64,000 nucleotides of DNA from Anaerococcus pacaensis 9403502. Its GTDB lineage: Bacteria; Bacillota; Clostridia; Tissierellales; Peptoniphilaceae. The stretch spans positions 23,265-87,264 of the forward strand of contig HG326666.1 of NCBI GenBank assembly GCA_000308255.3. The letters are read 5' to 3'. The position numbers and the translations under genes are program-made. Below, piece by piece: positions 6,198 to 22,086 of the stretch. Every line of letters begins with the position of its first letter. Positions within the stretch are counted from its first letter, which is position 1. A model generated the notes under the pieces. It saw nothing but the letters and a program-made list of their open reading frames with translations, was not told where the DNA came from and made no database searches.

Positions 6198-6221
6198 GAA
6201 AAATCATATATATAAAATATA

Positions 6222-6329
6222 ACTCTCCCATCCAGACTTTACTGTCGGTATTGGAATTGCACCAATTCAACCAAAAAAATGGCTCGCGGACTTTACCGCC
6301 GGTTAAGGAATTTCACCATTACCCTGAGT
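6222..6329 (-). promoter_or_regulatory. FMN riboswitch aptamer (RFN element)
   Basis: Read on the minus strand it contains the conserved RFN blocks GGTGAAATTCC, ACCGGCGGTAAAGTCCGCGA, ACCGACAGTAAAGTC and TGGATGGGAGAG in the right order. The closing stem P1 is short: ACTC pairs with GAGT (6326-6329 with 6222-6225). The core looks intact. Confidence 0.95.
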
Positions 6330-6480
6330 GAGCCCGTCTGGCTAGGGGAAGACCCTCCATGGAATGGTCGCAGAGCGGAGCTTGAGATACGCCCGCCCGG
6401 CGCTGAGAGGGCCCGTGCCAACAAGCACGGAAAACCGCAGATGCCAAAGGCATCGAGGACCAAAAAAAGCTCCCCTTATA
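6330..6480 (-). promoter_or_regulatory. GC-rich structured leader upstream of the FMN aptamer, unclassified
   Basis: Between the promoter and the aptamer lie about 150 bases far more GC-rich than anything nearby. Helices visible in the sequence: 6377-6383 with 6467-6473 (GGAGCTT/AAGCTCC), 6413-6418 with 6425-6430 (CCGTGC/GCACGG), 6440-6445 with 6449-6454 (GATGCC/GGCATC, loop of three), 6351-6354 with 6366-6369, and 6331-6334 with 6340-6343. The first encloses the next two, forming a branched domain. There is no RFN, TPP, cobalamin, SAM, glycine, T-box, SRP or RNase P signature that I can see. It could be a second aptamer, a stability element or an unrelated small RNA. Confidence 0.6.
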
Positions 6481-14155: not shown

Positions 14156-14401
14156 CTAGAAGTCTTTTATGATTTTAAAATCATCTGAGCCTGTTATTTC
14201 ATAAAAGCTCTCAGCATCTATTAAATTTTCAATAACCAACGATTCGATTTGTTCTAGCGAAAGATCTGTGGTCATTGCATAGCCACACGAAGATGATAGC
14301 TTGGTTGGAACTGGTACTAGCTTTGCACTAGAATCGAGCTCTTTTGCAAGAGTTTCTAATTGGATAGCTGCTGTAGTTGTATGAAAGGTCACAAGATTCA
14401 T
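14156..14401 (-). CDS. DUF3343 small protein (putative Se/S carrier)
   Basis: An 81-residue protein with TFHTTTAAIQLETLA at the N-terminus and the central LSSSCGYAM motif whose cysteine is the conserved feature of DUF3343. The family commonly sits next to YedF/TusA-like proteins and selenium genes. It is the last gene of the yedE operon and overlaps the TusA-like stop by one base. Confidence 0.82.
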   Translation of the reverse strand: MNLVTFHTTTAAIQLETLAKELDSSAKLVPVPTKLSSSCGYAMTTDLSLEQIESLVIENLIDAESFYEITGSDDFKIIKDF

Positions 14402-14607
14402 TATTTACTGCCTACTATTCTATAATGATCGCCAGCATTTTCTAGATTTGTCTTATAACCAGCATTTTCTAAGAATCTGATTACATTTTCTTTTGATACT
14501 TCTGTATCTACTAAGATAGCAAGTTCACTATCTCCTGCGATTGTTGCTTCTTGGGTAAGCATAATTGGTTCTGGACATGATAGCCCTCTTGTATCTACTT
14601 CTCTCAT
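14401..14607 (-). CDS. TusA/YedF-like sulfurtransferase-fold protein
   Basis: A 68-residue protein containing the CPxP motif: DTRGLSCPEPIMLTQ at residues 4-18. The cysteine can carry a persulfide or selenide in this family. Being encoded between a YedE transporter and DUF3343, it most likely serves selenium or sulfur trafficking rather than tRNA thiolation. It overlaps yedE by four bases. Confidence 0.9.
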   Translation of the reverse strand: MREVDTRGLSCPEPIMLTQEATIAGDSELAILVDTEVSKENVIRFLENAGYKTNLENAGDHYRIVGSK

Positions 14608-15665
14608 GCGTTGCTCCTTTTTGCTGTCATTGCTATGATTAGATTAATTACAAAACCAATTCCCACTGCAATCATACCATTTACTGTAGGACCAGCAGGA
14701 GAAGATGCAAGACCAAAGTTATGGGCAAAAGCTGCTCCCATGATAAGACCTATTACTGTGATAGCTGCATCATTGTCGCCTTGGCCAGATAGTACAGTTT
14801 GTCTGATTGGACAGCCACCCATTAGTACAGATGAGAAGCCCATTAGCATAGTGCCTAGGAAATTCCATAGGTGGTTAGAATGTGCTACTGGTTGGTCAGC
14901 AAAGCCAAAATTAAATTGACCAAAGATTAAATTCATTACTAGTGCACCGATAAAGATACCAGCTACGCCCATAAACAATGTATTATCTTTAACTAAAATA
15001 ATATCTCTAAAGGCTCCAGCTGTACAAAGTCTAGTTTTTTGGAATAAGCCACCTACGATTAGACCTGCGATTAGAGAAAGGATAACTGGTGCATGCATAG
15101 AACCAGGACCTTCTTCAGAGAAATTGATAAATTCTGGTTTTACAAATAAGAAAACTAATAGTAATACCATAAATGCTGGCATAAAGTATCCTGCAATTTT
15201 TGGCTGATTATAGGCACGACCTAATGTAAATCCTCTTTTTAGGAAATAAATACCAACTGCTATACCTGCCACAAAACCAATTAGGCCAATAATAGCATTT
15301 GCATCTCCACCAGCAAGTCTTAAGATTAGTCTTAGTGGACAGCCTAAGAACATTAAAGCACCAATCATAGCTGTAAAGCCCAGTGTAAATCTAAGTATAG
15401 GGCTAGATCCGCCTCTAGATTGGAATTCACCGCTTATGGTTGACATGATACAAGCGCCAAGTACAAAGCCGATTACTTCAGGTCTAAGATATTGAACAAC
15501 TCCAGCTGAATGAAGGCCTAGAGCACCAGTGATATCTCTCCAAAAACAAGCTAGACAAAAACCCATATTTCCAGGATTGCCAAATTTTACCAATAAGGCA
15601 GCAATAATACCAATAACAAGTCCCGCAATGAGGTTTCTGGTCTTACGATTTTTATTAACTTCCAT
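14604..15665 (-). CDS. yedE: YedE-family putative selenium transporter
   Basis: About 353 residues if started at ATG 15665 (MEVNKNRKT), which follows GGAGG by five bases; longer starts up to 15716 lack a ribosome binding site. It has about ten membrane segments in two DUF395/YeeE repeats, with conserved cysteines at GFCLACFWRD near residue 35, FLGCPLRLIL near 105 and MGGCPIRQTVLSG near 285. YeeE/YedE proteins move thiosulfate or are linked to selenium use; the TusA-like and DUF3343 partners favour selenium. Expression is set by a consensus promoter and a long structured leader duplicated elsewhere in the window. Confidence 0.9.
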   Translation of the reverse strand: MEVNKNRKTRNLIAGLVIGIIAALLVKFGNPGNMGFCLACFWRDITGALGLHSAGVVQYLRPEVIGFVLGACIMSTISGEFQSRGGSSPILRFTLGFTAMIGALMFLGCPLRLILRLAGGDANAIIGLIGFVAGIAVGIYFLKRGFTLGRAYNQPKIAGYFMPAFMVLLLVFLFVKPEFINFSEEGPGSMHAPVILSLIAGLIVGGLFQKTRLCTAGAFRDIILVKDNTLFMGVAGIFIGALVMNLIFGQFNFGFADQPVAHSNHLWNFLGTMLMGFSSVLMGGCPIRQTVLSGQGDNDAAITVIGLIMGAAFAHNFGLASSPAGPTVNGMIAVGIGFVINLIIAMTAKRSNA

Positions 15666-15691
15666 GGTTTCCTCCATAATATTTAACGGAA

Positions 15692-15838
15692 AAATGGACA
15701 CAAAAAGTACACTCATCCGTCATTTGTGATTTCGAAAAAAGTGTACTAAAAGCCAAGGCTTATTTTTTCGATTTATATCTTGAAATAGGACGACCAAGTG
15801 TACTTAATCTTGCGATTTTGGCATGAAATCTTATTTCA
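15692..15838 (-). promoter_or_regulatory. Structured leader RNA, copy A (upstream of yedE)
   Basis: About 147 bases nearly identical to 21051-21203. Pairings visible on the minus strand: AAGTACACT (15797-15805) with AGTGTACTT (15705-15713); TCGAAAAAA (15763-15771) with TTTTTTCGA (15732-15740), enclosing AAGCC/GGCTT. A second AGTACACT (15740-15747) can pair with the same AGTGTACT instead, and that strand runs into five Ts. Two competing partners for one terminator-like strand is the layout of an attenuator or riboswitch. The ligand is unknown and no known class is recognised. Confidence 0.65.
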
Positions 15839-15843
15839 TTTTC

Positions 15844-15872
15844 ATTATAAAATATTATTAATTTTTTGTCAA
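15844..15872 (-). promoter_or_regulatory. Consensus promoter of the yedE leader
   Basis: TTGACA (15867-15872) and TATAAT (15844-15849) with a 17-base spacer on the minus strand, a perfect sigma-70/SigA promoter. The same promoter occurs in copy B at 21208-21236. Confidence 0.92.
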
Positions 15873-15888
15873 AGGTATATAACAAAAT

Positions 15889-15919
15889 AATCCCCTAGCA
15901 GGATAATATGCTAAGGGAT
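15889..15919 (-). terminator. Terminator after the permease remnant
   Basis: TCCCTTAGCA pairs with TGCTAGGGGA on the minus strand and is followed by a T-rich stretch. It corresponds to the terminator at 21246-21284 in the other copy. Confidence 0.7.
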
Positions 15920-15927
15920 TTGTTAGT

Positions 15928-16015
15928 TTATGCTACTGATAATTTATTATTGTGGAAGTAGTAGGCTAGGCCAGTTAATATAGCAATGATTACAATATTA
16001 ACTAAAAATGGCCAT
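15928..16015 (-). pseudogene. C-terminal remnant of an ABC-2 permease
   Basis: The minus-strand frame reads WPFLVNIVIIAILTGLAYY then FHNNKLSVA and a stop. This closely matches the last residues of the permease at 21292-22086 (...FHNKKLSVV). No upstream part of the gene is present: the homology begins right after the T-tract of the terminator at 16017-16042. It is a 3' fragment left by a rearrangement. Confidence 0.82.
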
Positions 16016-16016
16016 C

Positions 16017-16042
16017 AAAAAAAAGAGTAGCCTTAGCTACTC
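16017..16042 (-). terminator. Terminator of the peptide/nickel-type ABC operon
   Basis: GAGTAGC pairs with GCTACTC around a four-base loop and is followed by eight Ts on the minus strand. The stem overlaps the stop codon of the last ATPase gene. Confidence 0.9.
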
Positions 16043-16684
16043 ACTGGATACATTAGCTACCATATTTACAATTTTTTTGCTCTCCACATCTAATCTGAGT
16101 TGTTCTTGACTTGCATAATATATTGTTTTGGGATCGTGGCTTACTAGTATGATTACCACACCAGTAATGGACTTTATCATTTCAAGAATATTTTTTTGGT
16201 TGATTACATCCAGCGATGCCGTTGGTTCATCAAGAAGTAAAACTTTTGGATTTTGAGTTATCGCCCTTATAATAGACGCTCTTTGCAACTGTCCCCCTGA
16301 AAGGGAAGTAGGTTTTTTATCTAGCAGGGCTTTGTCCATCCCAAATTTCTCAAATAATTCACCAAGGTCATGACTGGTTTTATTTCTTCTGCATAACTCT
16401 TCTATGGATTCTCTAATGGTCATAGAAGGGTCGAATGATTTAAAGGAATTTTGAAAAACCACTTGAAATCCCATTCTATCTTTATCAACCAATTTACCAT
16501 TTAAGAAAATTTGACCATCATAGGGGATAAGTCCCAGCACCGCTTTCATGAAAGTTGATTTTCCACTACCGGACCTACCCATAAGCCCATAGCACTTAGC
16601 TTTTAAGTCGAGATTGATGTTGTCTAGTACCTTCTTATCCTTATAAGCAACTGAAAGGTCTTTTATTACCAAATTATTTTCCAT
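16037..16684 (-). CDS. ABC transporter ATP-binding protein, second NBD of a peptide/nickel-type system
   Basis: A short 215-residue NBD with Walker A GRSGSGKST near residue 37, signature LSGGQLQRASI near 128 and Walker B VLLLDEPTAS. It resembles NikE/DppF-like subunits but is shorter and lacks the C-terminal oligopeptide-type extension. It forms a heterodimer with the NBD encoded just upstream. It is the last gene of a five-gene operon. Confidence 0.9.
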   Translation of the reverse strand: MENNLVIKDLSVAYKDKKVLDNINLDLKAKCYGLMGRSGSGKSTFMKAVLGLIPYDGQIFLNGKLVDKDRMGFQVVFQNSFKSFDPSMTIRESIEELCRRNKTSHDLGELFEKFGMDKALLDKKPTSLSGGQLQRASIIRAITQNPKVLLLDEPTASLDVINQKNILEMIKSITGVVIILVSHDPKTIYYASQEQLRLDVESKKIVNMVANVSSE

Positions 16685-16695
16685 ACATCTCTCCC

Positions 16696-17439
16696 TTAAA
16701 ATTTCGCCGCTTCAAGCAAGTTTTTAGTGTAATCTTCTTTTGGATGGTTATAGACTACATCGGATAGGCCACTTTCTATAATCTTACCATTTTGCATGAT
16801 AAGAACCTTATCAGAGATTTTGTTGGCTAGGGTTAAATCGTGACTAATAAATAATAAAGACATATTGTGCTCTTGCTTTAATTTATCCAGAAGGGCTATG
16901 ATTCTAAGACCAGTCTCACTATCAAGGGCAGTAGTTGGCTCATCGCATATTAGTAGCTTTGGCAAGAGTATCATGGACATCATGATTACCATTCTTTGAA
17001 GCTCTCCTCCAGATAGTTCGTAAGGATATTTCATCAAATAATCCATTGGCAAGTTAACTTCTGCCATTAATGATTCTATTCTCTCATGGTTGTAAGGCAG
17101 TTTTTGTATTTTGTAGATATAATTTAACTGATCTTTGATAGTCATAACAGGAACCAAGGCATTAAAAGGATTTTGATAAATCATAGCAATTTCTTTTAAC
17201 CTTAGTTTTGAGATTTCTTTATCGGTCATTTTTAGCAAATTTTTATCATAAAAATTTATTTCACCCTTTTTTCCAAGCGCATCTGGCAGTAAACCCATAA
17301 TACATGTTGCAGTTAACGACTTGCCAGAACCCGATTCTCCTATTATAGATAATGATTCATTTTCAGCTATATCAAAGCTGATACCATCTACCAGATTGAC
17401 CTTGCCAATGCTTATTTCTAAATTATTCACCTTTAGCAT
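16696..17439 (-). CDS. ABC transporter ATP-binding protein, first NBD of a peptide/nickel-type system
   Basis: A 247-residue NBD with Walker A GESGSGKSLTAT near residue 34, the signature LSGGELQRMVIM near 141 and Walker B LLICDEPTTALD. It resembles NikD/DppD. It overlaps the permease gene upstream by 17 bases. Together with the second NBD it energises import by the two permeases. Confidence 0.92.
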   Translation of the reverse strand: MLKVNNLEISIGKVNLVDGISFDIAENESLSIIGESGSGKSLTATCIMGLLPDALGKKGEINFYDKNLLKMTDKEISKLRLKEIAMIYQNPFNALVPVMTIKDQLNYIYKIQKLPYNHERIESLMAEVNLPMDYLMKYPYELSGGELQRMVIMMSMILLPKLLICDEPTTALDSETGLRIIALLDKLKQEHNMSLLFISHDLTLANKISDKVLIMQNGKIIESGLSDVVYNHPKEDYTKNLLEAAKF

Positions 17440-18202
17440 ATTGTTCTCCTAGACCTTGGATTGAAAATACCAACAACACTACAAGGACACCTGCTGGCAA
17501 CCACATCCACCACTTATCACCTACATTTAGGATATTTAAGGCTACTGATAAGATAGTACCTAGACTTGTCTGTGGTTCCTTGATACCAAAGCCCAGAAAC
17601 GAAAGACTAGCCTCCATTAGAATAGCTTGAGCCATAGACCCTGTAAATAGTACTAGCAATGTATCTCTAATGTTTGGAATAATGTGTTTAAATAAAATTT
17701 GAGAATTCTTTATCCCATTTATTCTAAGAACCTGAATAAATTCTGCATCCTTTAATACTTTTATCTCATTTACCAAAATCCTTGTTGCAGGAGCAAAGGT
17801 AAATAGCACTATGATTATAATCAGGTTTCTCATGCTTGACCCTATAAAGGCTGCAATACTTACCGCTATAACATAAAAAGGAAAACACATAAAGATATCG
17901 ACTATACGCATGACGACCGCCTCGGCCTTGGTATTAATAGCCGCAATAAAAGCGAGGGTCAAGGCTAGTAGCATCTTAAGCATCGTAGAAGATAGGGAAA
18001 TAATAACAGACTTTTGGCCGCCACTCATAAGTCTAGATAAGATATCTCTGCCCAGGCCATCTGTACCCATAACATGCTCACTAGATGGAGCAACCTCTAT
18101 ATTTCTAAGGTCAGGAGTCGCAGGATCTATATCATAAACCAGTGGACCTACAAAGATAAATATCAATAATAAGGATATGATTGTTATATAAAATTTTTTC
18201 AA
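17423..18202 (-). CDS. ABC transporter permease, DppC/NikC type
   Basis: A 259-residue inner-membrane protein with about six helices. The N-terminal segment contains HVMGTDGLGRDILSRLMSGGQ (residues about 43-63), the DppC/NikC hallmark, and the EAA loop reads LRINGIKNSQILFKHIIPN near 158. It overlaps the DppB-like permease by four bases and the NBD by 17 bases. Confidence 0.92.
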   Translation of the reverse strand: MKKFYITIISLLLIFIFVGPLVYDIDPATPDLRNIEVAPSSEHVMGTDGLGRDILSRLMSGGQKSVIISLSSTMLKMLLALTLAFIAAINTKAEAVVMRIVDIFMCFPFYVIAVSIAAFIGSSMRNLIIIIVLFTFAPATRILVNEIKVLKDAEFIQVLRINGIKNSQILFKHIIPNIRDTLLVLFTGSMAQAILMEASLSFLGFGIKEPQTSLGTILSVALNILNVGDKWWMWLPAGVLVVLLVFSIQGLGEQYAKGE

Positions 18203-19155
18203 TCTCCCACCTCCAATCTCCTATCAAGTCTCGAACTTAGTATATCTGCCAATAGGTTGGATAATAGTACCATAAGTGAAATCATAAAAATTAATCCCAA
18301 GATTAACGGATAATCTCTACCCATTACCGCCTCATAATTTAACCTACCAATTCCCGGCCAAACAAAAACAGTTTCTGTTATGAGCATCCCTGATATGATT
18401 CCTGGCACTTCCATCAATACCATTATAAGGAGTTTTGGTGCGATGTTTTTTAGACCAATCTTCTTATAGGCATCATAGTGGGTCATTCCAAAACCCCTAT
18501 AAGTTTTTATATACTCTTCAGCCTTTACCTTATTCATAAAACCAATCACATACCTCACTATGGATGAAAATTGTATAAATGTTAGAACCGTAACAGGCAA
18601 AACCCCGTGATAAATCCTATTTAGCCAGGTAGGTAGGTTCGAGCCCTGTGATAGGGCACCTGTTCCTGAAATTGGAAAGATTTTATGGTCAAAAGCTAAA
18701 AATTTGATTAATATAATAGCAATCAGAAAAGTTGGCATAGAAATGCCTATCATTGAAATCACATCTACAACTTTATATGCAGTACCACCCTTAAAAGCAG
18801 CCCACCTACCTATTAGTATTGCAAGAATAACAGAAAAGGTTAGCGCCGGGATGGTTAGCATGATGGTATTTGGAATCCTCTCTAATATAACACTAGTTAC
18901 TGGTTTGTTGTGGAGGATAGAATAACCAAAATCCAATCTTATAAATGATAAGAACCATTTTCCAAATTTTACATAGAGCGGGTCATAATAGCCCTTATTT
19001 CTCAGCATGGTCTCTATCTGTTCAGGAGTCATGCCTTGCTTAATAAAACTTGCATAAGGGTTGCCTGGCATTAGCTGCATTAAGATAAACATCAGGGCAG
19101 ATATGCCTACAACCATGATTAAGATGGTTCCTAGTCTTTTTAAAACTCTATTCAT
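18199..19155 (-). CDS. ABC transporter permease, DppB/NikB type
   Basis: A 318-residue protein with six helices. MPGNPY near residue 30, the EAA loop YRGFGMTHYDAYKKIGLKN near 217 and VFVWPGIGRL near 265 are typical of DppB/NikB. It follows the binding-protein gene across a 63-base gap that holds an intra-operon hairpin. Confidence 0.93.
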   Translation of the reverse strand: MNRVLKRLGTILIMVVGISALMFILMQLMPGNPYASFIKQGMTPEQIETMLRNKGYYDPLYVKFGKWFLSFIRLDFGYSILHNKPVTSVILERIPNTIMLTIPALTFSVILAILIGRWAAFKGGTAYKVVDVISMIGISMPTFLIAIILIKFLAFDHKIFPISGTGALSQGSNLPTWLNRIYHGVLPVTVLTFIQFSSIVRYVIGFMNKVKAEEYIKTYRGFGMTHYDAYKKIGLKNIAPKLLIMVLMEVPGIISGMLITETVFVWPGIGRLNYEAVMGRDYPLILGLIFMISLMVLLSNLLADILSSRLDRRLEVGD

Positions 19156-19172
19156 AAAATAATCACCTTTAT

Positions 19173-19203
19173 TAAAAAGAAAGCCAACTCAGTTGAGTTA
19201 GCC
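19173..19203 (-). terminator. Intra-operon attenuator hairpin
   Basis: GCTAACTC pairs with GAGTTGGC on the minus strand and is followed by a T-rich tract. It lies between the binding-protein gene and the first permease, a common way to keep binding protein in excess over membrane subunits. Confidence 0.72.
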
Positions 19204-19218
19204 TCTCTTTTCTAAATA

Positions 19219-21027
19219 TTATTCTGCTATTTCCCAATTATTAACATTATAGAAATCAACAAAAGTATTTGGATTATAGTTCTTTAGACCAGAATTGTAT
19301 GCTTTAGTAATGTCTGATACGTAAAGTGGTAACCATGGTAGATTTTTATTTAAGATTTTACCAAATTCTTTTAGTGTTTCTGCTCTCTCGTCAATATCTA
19401 GTTGTTGTCTATTTAAATCTAATAGTCTGTCTGCTTCTTCATCTTTGAATGATGCAATATTCCAACCATATACACCTGGTTCATCAGATGCTTGGGTTGA
19501 TCTCCAGTTTGGTGTTGGGTCTGGGTCTGGATCTAGGGTATTACCCATTAGATATAGGTCAAAGTCGTGGTTTCCTACAACCTTATCCATAATCGCTTGG
19601 AATTCCATTGGGTTTAAATCAAGCTTAATACCAACTTGACCAAGATAGCTTTGGATAATTGTTCCCGTTTGCTCTCTAATTTGATCTCCTGTAGGAACAT
19701 CTAAAACTAGTTCTAGATCCTTACCATCTTTATCTACTACGCCATTGCCATTTGTGTCTTCCCATCCTGCTTCTTTTAGTAGAGCTTTTGATTTTTCTAC
19801 ATCGTATTCATAGTCGATTAGACCTTCTTTTGGATATGACCAAAGTGATGGAACCATTGGAGTGTTGATAACCTCACCATTACCCTCGATTAGCCCATCA
19901 ACGATAGCTTGGCGGTCTACAGCATGAGCTACCGCTTGTCTTATTTTTACATCATTTAGAATATCTTTTCTAAGGTTAAAGCCCATGTATTGAATTTTAG
20001 AGTTAGGGTATCTTTTAACTTCTACATTTTCAGCCACAAGTTTTTCTTCATCGCTTGCTTTTAAACCAGAGATATCAGCTACATCTACAGAGCCATTGAT
20101 AAGTTCAGCTGTGACGGTATCAGGGTTTACGACTTTAAATATAAAGCTATTTGTTTTTGGTACACCATCATAGTAATCTTCGTTGGCATTAAGTTGAACA
20201 TATTCGCCTTTTTGATATTTCTCAAATTTGTATGGACCTGTTCCTATTGGGTTAGCTATTTCATTTGACTTTTGCCACTCCTTGATTCCTACATTTTCCC
20301 AAATGTGTTTTGGAATTATGTTAAGGGTTCCAATATTAAATAGTACTGGTGAATAAGGTACATCAAAGTTGATTTCTACAGTTTTTTCATCCGGAGTAAC
20401 AACACCTTCTAAGCTATCAGCTTCACCCTTGTTAAAGGCCTCATAACCCGCGATAGAATCAACATAGCTTGATAGGTCTCCTTCATAATCTCCACTTGCA
20501 AGTGATTCTAGAGTAAACTTTACATCTTCACTTGTGAAAGGTTCACCATCATGGAATTTGATTCCGTCTTTTAGATGGAAAGTAATCTTCAATCCATCTT
20601 CAGATACATCATAGCTTTCGGCCATTGCTGGTTCAACTTCTATGTCAGAGTTTAATTGGAGAAGTGAATCATAAACTAAAGAAATAACTGCATTGTCGTA
20701 TTGAGTGTTTGAAAATAGTGGATTAAATACCCCATCTGGTGCTGAATTTAGCCCATAAACAATCTCATCTTTAGACCCTGTTGGAGCTACGGTTGTAGTT
20801 TCGTTTTCAGCTTCGTCTTCAGTGGTTTCTGCTTCGTTTTTGGCAGTTTCTGCTTCTGTTGGTGCTACTTCTGTGGTTTCATTAGTTTGACTAGGTTCTT
20901 CAACCTCTGCTGTTTGTGTTGTTTGTGTATCTGTAGCTGGTTGGTTATTATTACCACAAGCAGATATAAGCGGCACTAAAGATAGCATTAGAACAACTGG
21001 TAAATTTTTAAAAAATTTATTTTTCAT
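19219..21027 (-). CDS. Peptide/nickel-type ABC transporter substrate-binding lipoprotein (SBP family 5)
   Basis: A 602-residue protein. Signal peptide with lipobox LISAC at about residues 20-24, then a long acidic and Thr-rich linker (about 30-85), then the family 5 domain: LKDGIKFHDGEPFTSEDVKF near 150, NPIGTGPYKFEKY near 255 and AVAHAVDRQAIVDGL near 360. The substrate could be a peptide, nickel-chelate or similar; sequence does not decide. ATG follows AGGAGG by six bases. Transcription starts at a perfect promoter and passes through the duplicated leader. Confidence 0.93.
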   Translation of the reverse strand: MKNKFFKNLPVVLMLSLVPLISACGNNNQPATDTQTTQTAEVEEPSQTNETTEVAPTEAETAKNEAETTEDEAENETTTVAPTGSKDEIVYGLNSAPDGVFNPLFSNTQYDNAVISLVYDSLLQLNSDIEVEPAMAESYDVSEDGLKITFHLKDGIKFHDGEPFTSEDVKFTLESLASGDYEGDLSSYVDSIAGYEAFNKGEADSLEGVVTPDEKTVEINFDVPYSPVLFNIGTLNIIPKHIWENVGIKEWQKSNEIANPIGTGPYKFEKYQKGEYVQLNANEDYYDGVPKTNSFIFKVVNPDTVTAELINGSVDVADISGLKASDEEKLVAENVEVKRYPNSKIQYMGFNLRKDILNDVKIRQAVAHAVDRQAIVDGLIEGNGEVINTPMVPSLWSYPKEGLIDYEYDVEKSKALLKEAGWEDTNGNGVVDKDGKDLELVLDVPTGDQIREQTGTIIQSYLGQVGIKLDLNPMEFQAIMDKVVGNHDFDLYLMGNTLDPDPDPTPNWRSTQASDEPGVYGWNIASFKDEEADRLLDLNRQQLDIDERAETLKEFGKILNKNLPWLPLYVSDITKAYNSGLKNYNPNTFVDFYNVNNWEIAE

Positions 21028-21050
21028 TGAATCCTCCTATGTTTGTGACT

Positions 21051-21203
21051 TAAAAATGGACACAAAAAGAACACTTATCCGTCATTTGTTATTTCGAAAA
21101 AAGTGTACTAAAAGCCAAGGCTTATCTTTTCGATTTATTGCTCTTGAAATAGGACGACCAAGTGTACTTAATCTTGCGATTTTGGCAAGAAATCTTATTT
21201 CAT
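21051..21203 (-). promoter_or_regulatory. Structured leader RNA, copy B (upstream of the binding-protein operon)
   Basis: The same leader as 15692-15838. The inner stem is kept with a compensatory-type change: TCGAAAAGA pairs with TTTTTTCGA through one G-U. The distal stem AAGTACACTT/AAGTGTTCTT keeps nine of ten pairs. Identity stops close to the end of the foldable region and the bases next to the ribosome binding sites differ between copies, which argues for function of the folded part. Confidence 0.65.
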
Positions 21204-21207
21204 TTTC

Positions 21208-21236
21208 ATTATAAAATATTATTAATTTTTTGTCAA
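21208..21236 (-). promoter_or_regulatory. Consensus promoter of the binding-protein operon
   Basis: TTGACA (21231-21236) and TATAAT (21208-21213) with a 17-base spacer on the minus strand, identical to the copy upstream of yedE. Confidence 0.92.
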
Positions 21237-21245
21237 AGCTATATA

Positions 21246-21284
21246 ACAAAATAATCCCTTAGCAGGCTAAGCTGCTAAGGGATT
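21246..21284 (-). terminator. Terminator of the GntR/ABC operon
   Basis: A perfect 13-pair stem (AATCCCTTAGCAG with CTGCTAAGGGATT) with a six-base loop, followed by ATTTTGTT on the minus strand, just after the permease stop. Confidence 0.88.
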
Positions 21285-21291
21285 AGCTGAT

Positions 21292-22086
21292 TTATACTAC
21301 TGAAAGTTTTTTATTGTGAAAATAATATGCTAGACCATTTAATATGGCTATTATCAGTAAATTAATAGCAATTGGCCATCCTAGCGCTCCATATGGTGGA
21401 TTTACCGCTAAGTTTATTTCAATAAGATCTGGGTTTAAGTTGCTAGTAAACATATAATCTCCCAATACTTGTATCTGAAGTCTCACAAATAAAATAGTAA
21501 CAAGGAAATTCACTATAAAAAATACTAATACTGGTGCAAAACTACCTAGCTTACTCATAGCTTTAGATGCGCCAATTGAATTGGCAAATAATATCTCGCT
21601 TACAACTGTCACTCCATACACTAAGACATATATAAATGTCAAGAAGGTCATATAAGCTCCATAATTTGCTACAAATAATTCAAAGCCTTCGCCTATAGCC
21701 TCTAAAAAGCTTAAATCACCAGCTTGACTAGCAAATAGGATGGTTATATTGATAAGAGCTGCTAGGCAAGCTAGGATACCCATTAATATATAATTAATCA
21801 GCCTAGCCCCTATTACTGTCCCGCTATCGTAAGGAAGAGCAGAATAAAAGGCAGCATTTTTCCCATAAAATCTAGTCCAGTCATTGACAGCAGCTTGGAT
21901 TAAAGCTACGAACGGAAACATAAATACCAACATCATACTCATGCCTGCTATCATGCCAATTATAGCATTTTCGCCAACTGTTACTAATACCATTAGAGTT
22001 GCAATAACAACTATTGGCGGAAATACCAACCAAGGTAGTATGTCTTTAAAGTCTTCTTTAAATAATTGTCCGATAAGTTTACCCAT
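21292..22086 (-). CDS. ABC-2 type transporter permease
   Basis: A 264-residue protein with about six membrane segments and no clear family motif beyond the general ABC-2 layout. It is translationally coupled to the ATPase gene: its ATG overlaps the ATPase stop. With the YtrA-like regulator ahead it forms a three-gene unit like those induced by cell-wall antibiotics in other Firmicutes. A 3' fragment of a paralogue lies at 15928-16015. Confidence 0.85.
   Translation of the reverse strand: MGKLIGQLFKEDFKDILPWLVFPPIVVIATLMVLVTVGENAIIGMIAGMSMMLVFMFPFVALIQAAVNDWTRFYGKNAAFYSALPYDSGTVIGARLINYILMGILACLAALINITILFASQAGDLSFLEAIGEGFELFVANYGAYMTFLTFIYVLVYGVTVVSEILFANSIGASKAMSKLGSFAPVLVFFIVNFLVTILFVRLQIQVLGDYMFTSNLNPDLIEINLAVNPPYGALGWPIAINLLIIAILNGLAYYFHNKKLSVV

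Follow-up and report, generated by a model that had tools for sequence, protein, structure and literature searches.

Tandem bulged hairpins in a family of leader RNAs ahead of selenium-linked and transporter genes in Anaerococcus: a candidate attenuator class

Introduction

The guanidine-II (mini-ykkC) riboswitch consists of two small tandem hairpins with the conserved apical-loop motif ACGR and is found with genes of one theme. ANTAR antiterminator leaders carry conserved hexanucleotide apical loops in both of their hairpins, and the SECIS-like element of E. coli selAB is a single leader hairpin with conserved apical features that is bound by SelB. In this work, we analysed a stretch of 64,000 nucleotides (nt) of contig HG326666.1 from Anaerococcus pacaensis 9403502 (the window; source genome G000, 2.37 Mb in 14 contigs), which contains two copies of a leader. 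With guanidine-II, these leaders share two tandem hairpins, the same short unpaired motif in each of them and genes of one theme; with the ANTAR leaders, they share two hairpins, the second of which is tied to a terminator, and a design in which binding would prevent termination; and with the selAB element, they share a leader hairpin that would control selenium genes.

The window copies belong to a family of 18 leaders, for which the likeliest interpretation is a young class of attenuators in control of a selenium regulon. PMC5322559 describes the selenium regulatory network as incompletely understood and puts forward a regulator protein, LysR_Se/HrsM, and PMC9312934 states that, as of 2022, no high-affinity selenium transport system had been identified.

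Results

Both leaders of the window are encoded on the minus strand, as are all large genes around them, and they start at approximately 15838 (copy 1) and 21202 (copy 2), with 15692 and 21051 being their 3′ ends. A first-pass annotation of the window had placed a duplicated leader at 15692–15838 and 21051–21203; these positions are right, and the copies agree in 142 of 152 aligned columns. The segments listed there as conserved were all found on the minus strand of both copies, namely AAGTACACT (distal), AGTACACT (proximal) and AGTGTACT or AGTGTTCT followed by T5. The A-to-G change between the copies, which had been described as preserving pairing, indeed retains a G-U pair (TCGAAAAAA or TCGAAAAGA with TTTTTTCGA). 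The annotation had also noted diverging ribosome-binding regions and a drifted permease remnant, and the corresponding agreement is 12/25 columns after the leader, in the ribosome-binding region, and 68/93 columns in the remnant, to be set against 48/50 in the promoter block; the preceding terminator agrees in 29/34 columns. The remnant (15923–16015, minus strand) derives from the permease gene at 21292–22086, of which it retains a degraded 3′ end. The copies arose by a tandem duplication that took in the leader along with the end of the permease gene upstream, and 15923–16015 is its scar. A TTGACA-17-TATAAT promoter with a perfect consensus match (12/12) precedes both copies: in copy 1, the −35 box is situated at 15867–15872 and the −10 box at 15844–15849, with a transcript start expected at about 15838, and in copy 2 the boxes are located at 21231–21236 and 21208–21213, all on the minus strand. 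Promoter-like sites around the copies were no commoner than in shuffles (2 vs 1.7 and 1.5). From the U run to the start codon there are 37 nt in each copy.

Each leader is composed of a first hairpin (A) and a second hairpin (B) that share one design, i.e., stem P2, 0–3 nt, hairpin P3, 0–3 nt, AGUACAC, 0–1 nt, and stem P2′, with an identical 7-nt 3′ bulge AGUACAC in each. In copy 1, hairpin A (15794–15821, minus strand) reads CCAA-AAUC(GCAA)GAUU-A-AGUACAC-UUGG, with the bulge at 15798–15804, and hairpin B (15732–15771, minus strand) reads UCGAAAAA-AU-AAGC(CUUG)GCUU-UU-AGUACAC-U-UUUUUCGA, with the bulge at 15741–15747. The counterparts in copy 2 are located on the same strand at 21158–21185 (bulge 21162–21168) and 21094–21133 (bulge 21103–21109). 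Covariance model R2, which both rows helped build, gave 53.2 bits to hairpin B of copy 1 and 51.1 bits to that of copy 2. The first-pass annotation had proposed two competing partners for a terminator-like strand. Both partners can pair with that strand and have the same sequence, and since the two bulges are identical, either is able to take part in the competition that it described; what it overlooked is that these partners are the equivalent bulges of two homologous hairpins. The distal AGTACAC is more than a mere decoy, as it forms the 3′ bulge of hairpin A.

Across the family, the bulges of A and B are spaced 57–79 nt apart, TTGACA is located 59–80 nt 5′ of bulge A in 18/18 leaders, and the best-fitting P3 loops vary in sequence as well as in length (3 to 8 nt). 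Invariance is limited to about 7 nt in each unit. The self-complementary GUAC of the bulge was unchanged in 36/36 units, a count that reflects a collecting pattern which itself demanded AGTACAC. Unconstrained folding produced both bulged hairpins in 11/18 leaders (A in 14, B in 14).

When folded against shuffled sequences, copy 1 reached z values of −2.4 and −2.5, and copy 2 (−0.6 and −0.7) was not better than the shuffles; the two window copies alone are weak evidence of structure, and together with the other family members the structure is more than chance. This was assessed with a fixed scoring rule for the unit design, applied against dinucleotide shuffles. Among the first 12 leaders, 22/24 units reached p<0.05, and the same rule, unchanged, gave p<0.05 for 11/12 units of six leaders found later; p values combined over these units are too small, the orthologous leaders being non-independent. 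These 24 units had a mean hairpin score of 10.6 in the first round, vs 5.6 for 48 AGTACAC sites elsewhere in the loci then under study; the control sites of L033 and L034, which scored high (11.0), looked like coding sequence by eye. The units that failed were hairpins A of the G012 iron–sulfur (Fe-S) leader (p 0.85), the G022 yedE leader (p 0.12) and the G000 ssu leader (p 0.37).

Covariation was evaluated in 19 units (17 B and 2 A) aligned by covariance model R1, of which five built the model and from which the G000 ssu units are absent. In this alignment, which is fitted to R1's own structure, 94.1% of the cells were paired, 58 double-change cells were counted vs 17.4 in shuffles, and changes on both sides occurred in 11/13 pairs. 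The covariation score of 0.647 (0.187 in shuffles) was reached by 0/500 shuffles and fell to at most 0.207 when the partner strand was slid by one column. For P2 alone, 95.4% of the cells were paired and the score was 0.850 vs 0.213, again reached by 0/500 shuffles. The stems covary, and the bulges are invariant, partly since the search demanded AGTACAC.

The first-pass annotation had named beforehand, as the trial of its proposal, a covariance-model search of the genome and its relatives, and homologues with covarying stems were found, giving 18 leaders. They are all located in 5/31 Anaerococcus genomes, with five in G000, three in G008, four in G012, four in G023, and two in G022. In nucleotide searches of the source genome and 31 genus genomes, there were no strong matches besides the two window copies, and plasmids and phages gave no match. 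A search of 130 genomes of the family produced one real lead, L048, in another genome of the genus, which keeps AAGTACACT and the AAGCC-GGCUU-AGTACAC hairpin with an outer stem that is different yet paired; three further leads (L045, L046, and L047) were rejected, being within long open frames. The family was collected with a core pattern, from which L054 was discarded as a match inside an elongation-factor gene, with model R1, and with a pattern of two AGTACAC sites 49–79 nt apart. The observed spacing extends to the upper bound of this pattern, and leaders with wider spacing or an altered bulge may escape it.

Applied to 249 genomes of the order, R1 gave 43 matches, of which 12 were real. 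Of the other 31, 25 (L064–L088) were checked and rejected, 23 of them lacking AGTACAC at the match and the remaining two (L071 and L075) having one inside a gene with no second nearby; the six weak ones left (E 0.24 to 0.49) fell outside this check. The paired pattern found 20 places in the 31 genus genomes, two of them inside one shared gene, with three for the backwards pattern (all in G022). In the order it found 36 places, 17 of them real (28 for the backwards pattern); the other 19 were rejected for lying within one widely shared gene or for low hairpin scores (A ≤5.0, B ≤6.0; including G000:C8, i.e., L187). In 391 genomes of the class, it found 13 places, three of them real (nine for the backwards pattern). 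As a separate observation, a near-identical sequence with two AGTACAC sites is present in many genomes of the family (G006, G000:C8, G038, G050, G100, and others), where it is part of a roughly 500-codon frame resembling the ATPase of an ATP-binding cassette (ABC) transporter, and is perhaps mobile or exchanged. Likewise, a similar stretch beginning with AAGTACACTTTTTTGC occurs in G257, G349, G360, and G445 (L164, L163, L160, and L159), which represent three families within the class; its fit is moderate for hairpin A (8.5) and poor for hairpin B (≤6.0), and it was rejected.

No Rfam 15 family reached its gathering score at the leaders in the window and in 13 loci containing 13 of the 18 leaders. 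At permissive thresholds too, window positions 15400–21500 (E up to 5) and five loci (E up to 2) gave no Rfam match at the leaders. A literature search at the level of titles and abstract openings, with few subscription papers, found no description of such an element.

In folds of the window copies that ended at the U run, AAGUACACUUGGUCGUC, which comprises bulge A and its flank, paired with GACGGAU-GAGUGUACU, or with its copy-2 counterpart, immediately before U5. The 5′ strand of the predicted terminator stem, which contains bulge A, is situated at 15789–15805 in copy 1 and 21153–21169 in copy 2, and the 3′ strand with its T5 run at 15702–15721 and 21064–21083, all on the minus strand, with hairpin B in the loop of the stem. 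The terminator state was favoured over the state with open bulges by 9.1 (copy 1) and 8.0 (copy 2) kcal/mol, and the mutual exclusion of bulge A and the terminator stem is clear in the predicted folds of these two copies. By our reading of predicted structures, a terminator after or around hairpin B is clear in 11/18 leaders and doubtful in one (G023 selD). Among the nine other clear terminators, six (G008 selD, G012 ssu, and four methyltransferase clusters) have their 5′ strand between A and B and a stem enclosing the B region, and three (G000 selD, G008 ssu, and G023 DUF169) are wholly 3′ of B.

The 18 leaders precede selD operons (four), corrinoid-methyltransferase clusters (four), yedE (one), ABC importers (five), and an Fe-S/rhodanese operon (four), and in 9/18 cases the genes are tied to selenium in print. 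The selD operons of G008, G012, and G023 comprise genes for an activase and a double-cubane reductase, selD, yedF, and Se_S_carrier-like and desulfurase-like genes, and in G000 the desulfurase-like gene and a small gene come first; these families were tested in G000 only, and selD itself in all four. The methyltransferase clusters encode URO-D proteins, a corrinoid protein, RACo, a DUF4430 protein, and an antiporter (families tested on the G012 and G022 genes), and that of G022 also holds yedE. The one in G012 is located downstream of the 23S and 5S ribosomal RNA genes (L180 1–493). According to PMC10418091, type 1 mlp clusters combine URO-D superfamily methyltransferases with corrinoid proteins and are proposed to act in methyl-sulfur or methyl-selenium metabolism; in gene content, the Anaerococcus clusters resemble these clusters, for which methyl-selenium recycling has been proposed. 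In the available text of that paper, the terms riboswitch, RNA motif, and Anaerococcus do not occur.

In the window, copy 1 is followed on the minus strand by yedE, encoding a putative selenium transporter (14604–15665; TIGR04112, 511 bits, cut-off 200), then by a tusA-like gene (14401–14607; PF01206) and a Se_S_carrier (DUF3343-type) gene (14156–14401; PF11823). In the nearest relative, a leader is situated at the start of a yedE-containing operon, and the one expected directly upstream of yedE was not found there. Copy 2 heads five genes of a peptide/nickel-type ABC importer on the minus strand, consisting of a solute-binding protein (19219–21027; PF00496, and Opp4A with 369 bits, under the cut-off of 650) and, by family matches, two permeases and two ATPases (16037–19155). 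SsuA-like ABC importers are found behind three leaders, in G012, G008, and G000 (the latter two by eye); the best models for the G012 importer were SsuA, SaoX, and SaoP, all under their cut-offs. In G023, the corresponding leader is followed by a DUF169 gene and, behind it, by the gene for a similar binding protein; DUF169 is named among YedE-associated genes in PMC5322559. The Fe-S leader of G012 is followed by genes encoding an Fe-S protein, a rhodanese, a VTT protein, and a glycosyltransferase, with similar-looking genes in the other three genomes. In the Fe-S leaders of G012, G023, G008, and G022 (L051, L053, L062, and L063), and only in this group among the 18, the region separating hairpins A and B holds a short frame (MKFDYIYKL, MKFEYIYKLNVIF, MMFDYINKLK, and MKYLYIYKIN), which starts inside P2 of hairpin A and lacks a ribosome-binding motif. 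Elsewhere, an in-frame TGA in a G008 gene that looks PrdB-like by eye is consistent with selenocysteine use, and the window carries a flavin mononucleotide (FMN) riboswitch at 6216–6335 on the minus strand (RF00050, 97.5 bits).

No member was found outside the genus in 249 genomes of the order (R1 and the pattern), 391 of the class (pattern), and 398 of the phylum (R2), the class and phylum sets being samples that overlap the other sets and the stricter filters on large sets losing weak matches. L223, the lone R2 match outside G000 in the phylum set, lacked AGTACAC and was rejected. The selD gene is present in 22/31 genus genomes, including all five with leaders. In a SelD tree of 23 rows, midpoint-rooted for drawing only and with the G054 row dropped for want of sequence, a branch with support 96/92, present in 98% of bootstrap trees, sets the five genomes with leaders apart from the rest. 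The family looks like a young regulatory RNA, with all 18 members found in a single group of five species.

Discussion

The leaders are probably cis-acting regulatory RNAs, attenuators in most members, whose bulges read a trans signal and thereby control a selenium regulon. The first-pass annotation had suggested a transcription attenuator or an unknown riboswitch, which is still the best reading now that 18 leaders with covarying stems are available. In the proposed mechanism, the default state of the window copies would be an intrinsic terminator that acts in vivo, with bulge A and its flank as the 5′ strand, AGUGUACU or AGUGUUCU followed by U5 as the 3′ strand, and hairpin B in the loop. 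Something holding bulge A, or A and B together, would block this terminator, and the transporter genes would be read. Because the 5′ strand of the terminator is bulge A itself, holding this bulge would amount to antitermination in the window copies, and since the 5′ strand lies between A and B in six leaders, a bridge from A to B would oppose termination there too. The signal, read through the AGUACAC bulges of both hairpins, may be selenium status, and the regulon would include the selD operon, yedE, the methyl-selenium-type methyltransferase clusters, and the ABC importers.

Several results weigh against this interpretation. When more 3′ sequence is included in the fold, the terminator strand of copy 1 pairs with bulge B and not with A, and a simple terminator scan leaves both window leaders unflagged. 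In the four methyltransferase-cluster leaders, hairpin A lies outside the terminator stem, and B can fit inside it. No terminator was recognized in 6/18 leaders (the four Fe-S leaders, G012 selD, and G000 ssu), and these must work otherwise, perhaps on translation. Of the five covariation measures, the one that counts pairs altered on both sides was reached by 9/500 shuffles, and by 39/500 for P2 alone. Regarding the gene contexts, the genes behind 9/18 leaders have no established role connected with selenium. Finally, the element is absent from the G022 selD region and from the selD loci of 16 other genus genomes with upstream sequence (17 were fetched, of which L144 has almost none); weak R1 matches in two such regions, L152 (E 0.11, 2.3) and L146 (E 4), lack AGTACAC and were rejected, and R2 gave none up to E 1.

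As to what reads the bulges, a dedicated RNA-binding protein could dock on them and act as an antiterminator under selenium shortage or in the presence of an organoselenium substrate, and we regard this as a serious candidate that falls somewhat below an even chance. ANTAR proteins likewise dock on two hairpins. In the leaders, the few invariant nucleotides per unit and the two equivalent sites agree with such docking, as does the confinement of the family to one genome group, which a clade-specific protein would predict; against it, no candidate protein has been identified, the gene content of the genomes not having been compared. Alternatively, each bulged hairpin may bind a small selenium compound or a related metabolite, perhaps with GUAC-GUAC kissing between the two, which would make the leader a tandem riboswitch. 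We hold this only tentatively. It is favoured by the tandem arrangement of small hairpins that share an invariant segment, by coherent gene contexts of the selenium type, and by a self-complementary GUAC common to all units (though required by the collecting pattern), and the conserved covarying structure in 5′ leaders, half of them ahead of selenium-linked genes, is of the kind expected of a riboswitch; on the other side, the distribution is narrow for a riboswitch and there is little conserved sequence. Direct ligand binding is one of several possibilities. Its most specific form, a selenium-sensing riboswitch class in which two hairpins would bind a metabolite cooperatively, possibly through GUAC kissing, and would switch on an acquisition and salvage regulon that includes unrecognised importers such as the ABC transporter of the window, is rather unlikely.

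The remaining explanations are less probable. A trans-acting small RNA carrying GUGUACU might pair with the bulges, just as the window terminators already use the bulge complement in cis, but P2 and P3, which covary around the bulge, would be left unexplained, and we find this idea improbable. A role of the AGTACAC repeats at the DNA level, as operators to which a repressor or activator binds, is suggested by the imperfect palindrome AAGTACACTT and by the recurrence of the sites near promoters, and yet both sites are 3′ of the promoter, their spacing varies across the leaders, and their flanks covary as RNA stems, which makes such operators very improbable. Least credible of all is a functionless recent duplication or a leader-peptide attenuator: the window copies do represent a tandem duplication, but 16 further leaders are located elsewhere, and no short reading frame is common to the 18 leaders, with a weak ribosome-binding motif ahead of the frames in only 2/18.

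Leaders that two kinds of ABC importers share with selD operons, yedE, and the clusters of the methyl-selenium type mark candidates for selenium importers. The family provides a compact RNA to test and, as each member consists of two like hairpins, one in which the rise of an RNA regulon may be traced. Should it turn out to be a switch, the way in which these bacteria sense selenium, and the transporters by which they take it up, could be learned from it.

In comparison with known systems, LysR_Se/HrsM, as presented in PMC5322559, also concerns the control of selenium-metabolism genes, and it is a DNA-binding protein, in contrast to the apparent leader-RNA control found here. With the type 1 mlp clusters, as described in PMC10418091, the Anaerococcus clusters share gene types, a likeness drawn from gene content. 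The SECIS-like element of selAB differs in being single, whereas the hairpins described here occur in tandem and have variable loops. In guanidine-II riboswitches, the conserved motif (ACGR) is apical; in the Anaerococcus leaders, it is the 7-nt 3′ bulge AGUACAC of hairpins with variable loops. The same feature separates our leaders from those of ANTAR antiterminators, whose loops are conserved, unlike the loops of 3–8 nt that vary around a conserved bulge here. The likeness of the leader family to guanidine-II riboswitches and ANTAR antiterminators is one of layout.

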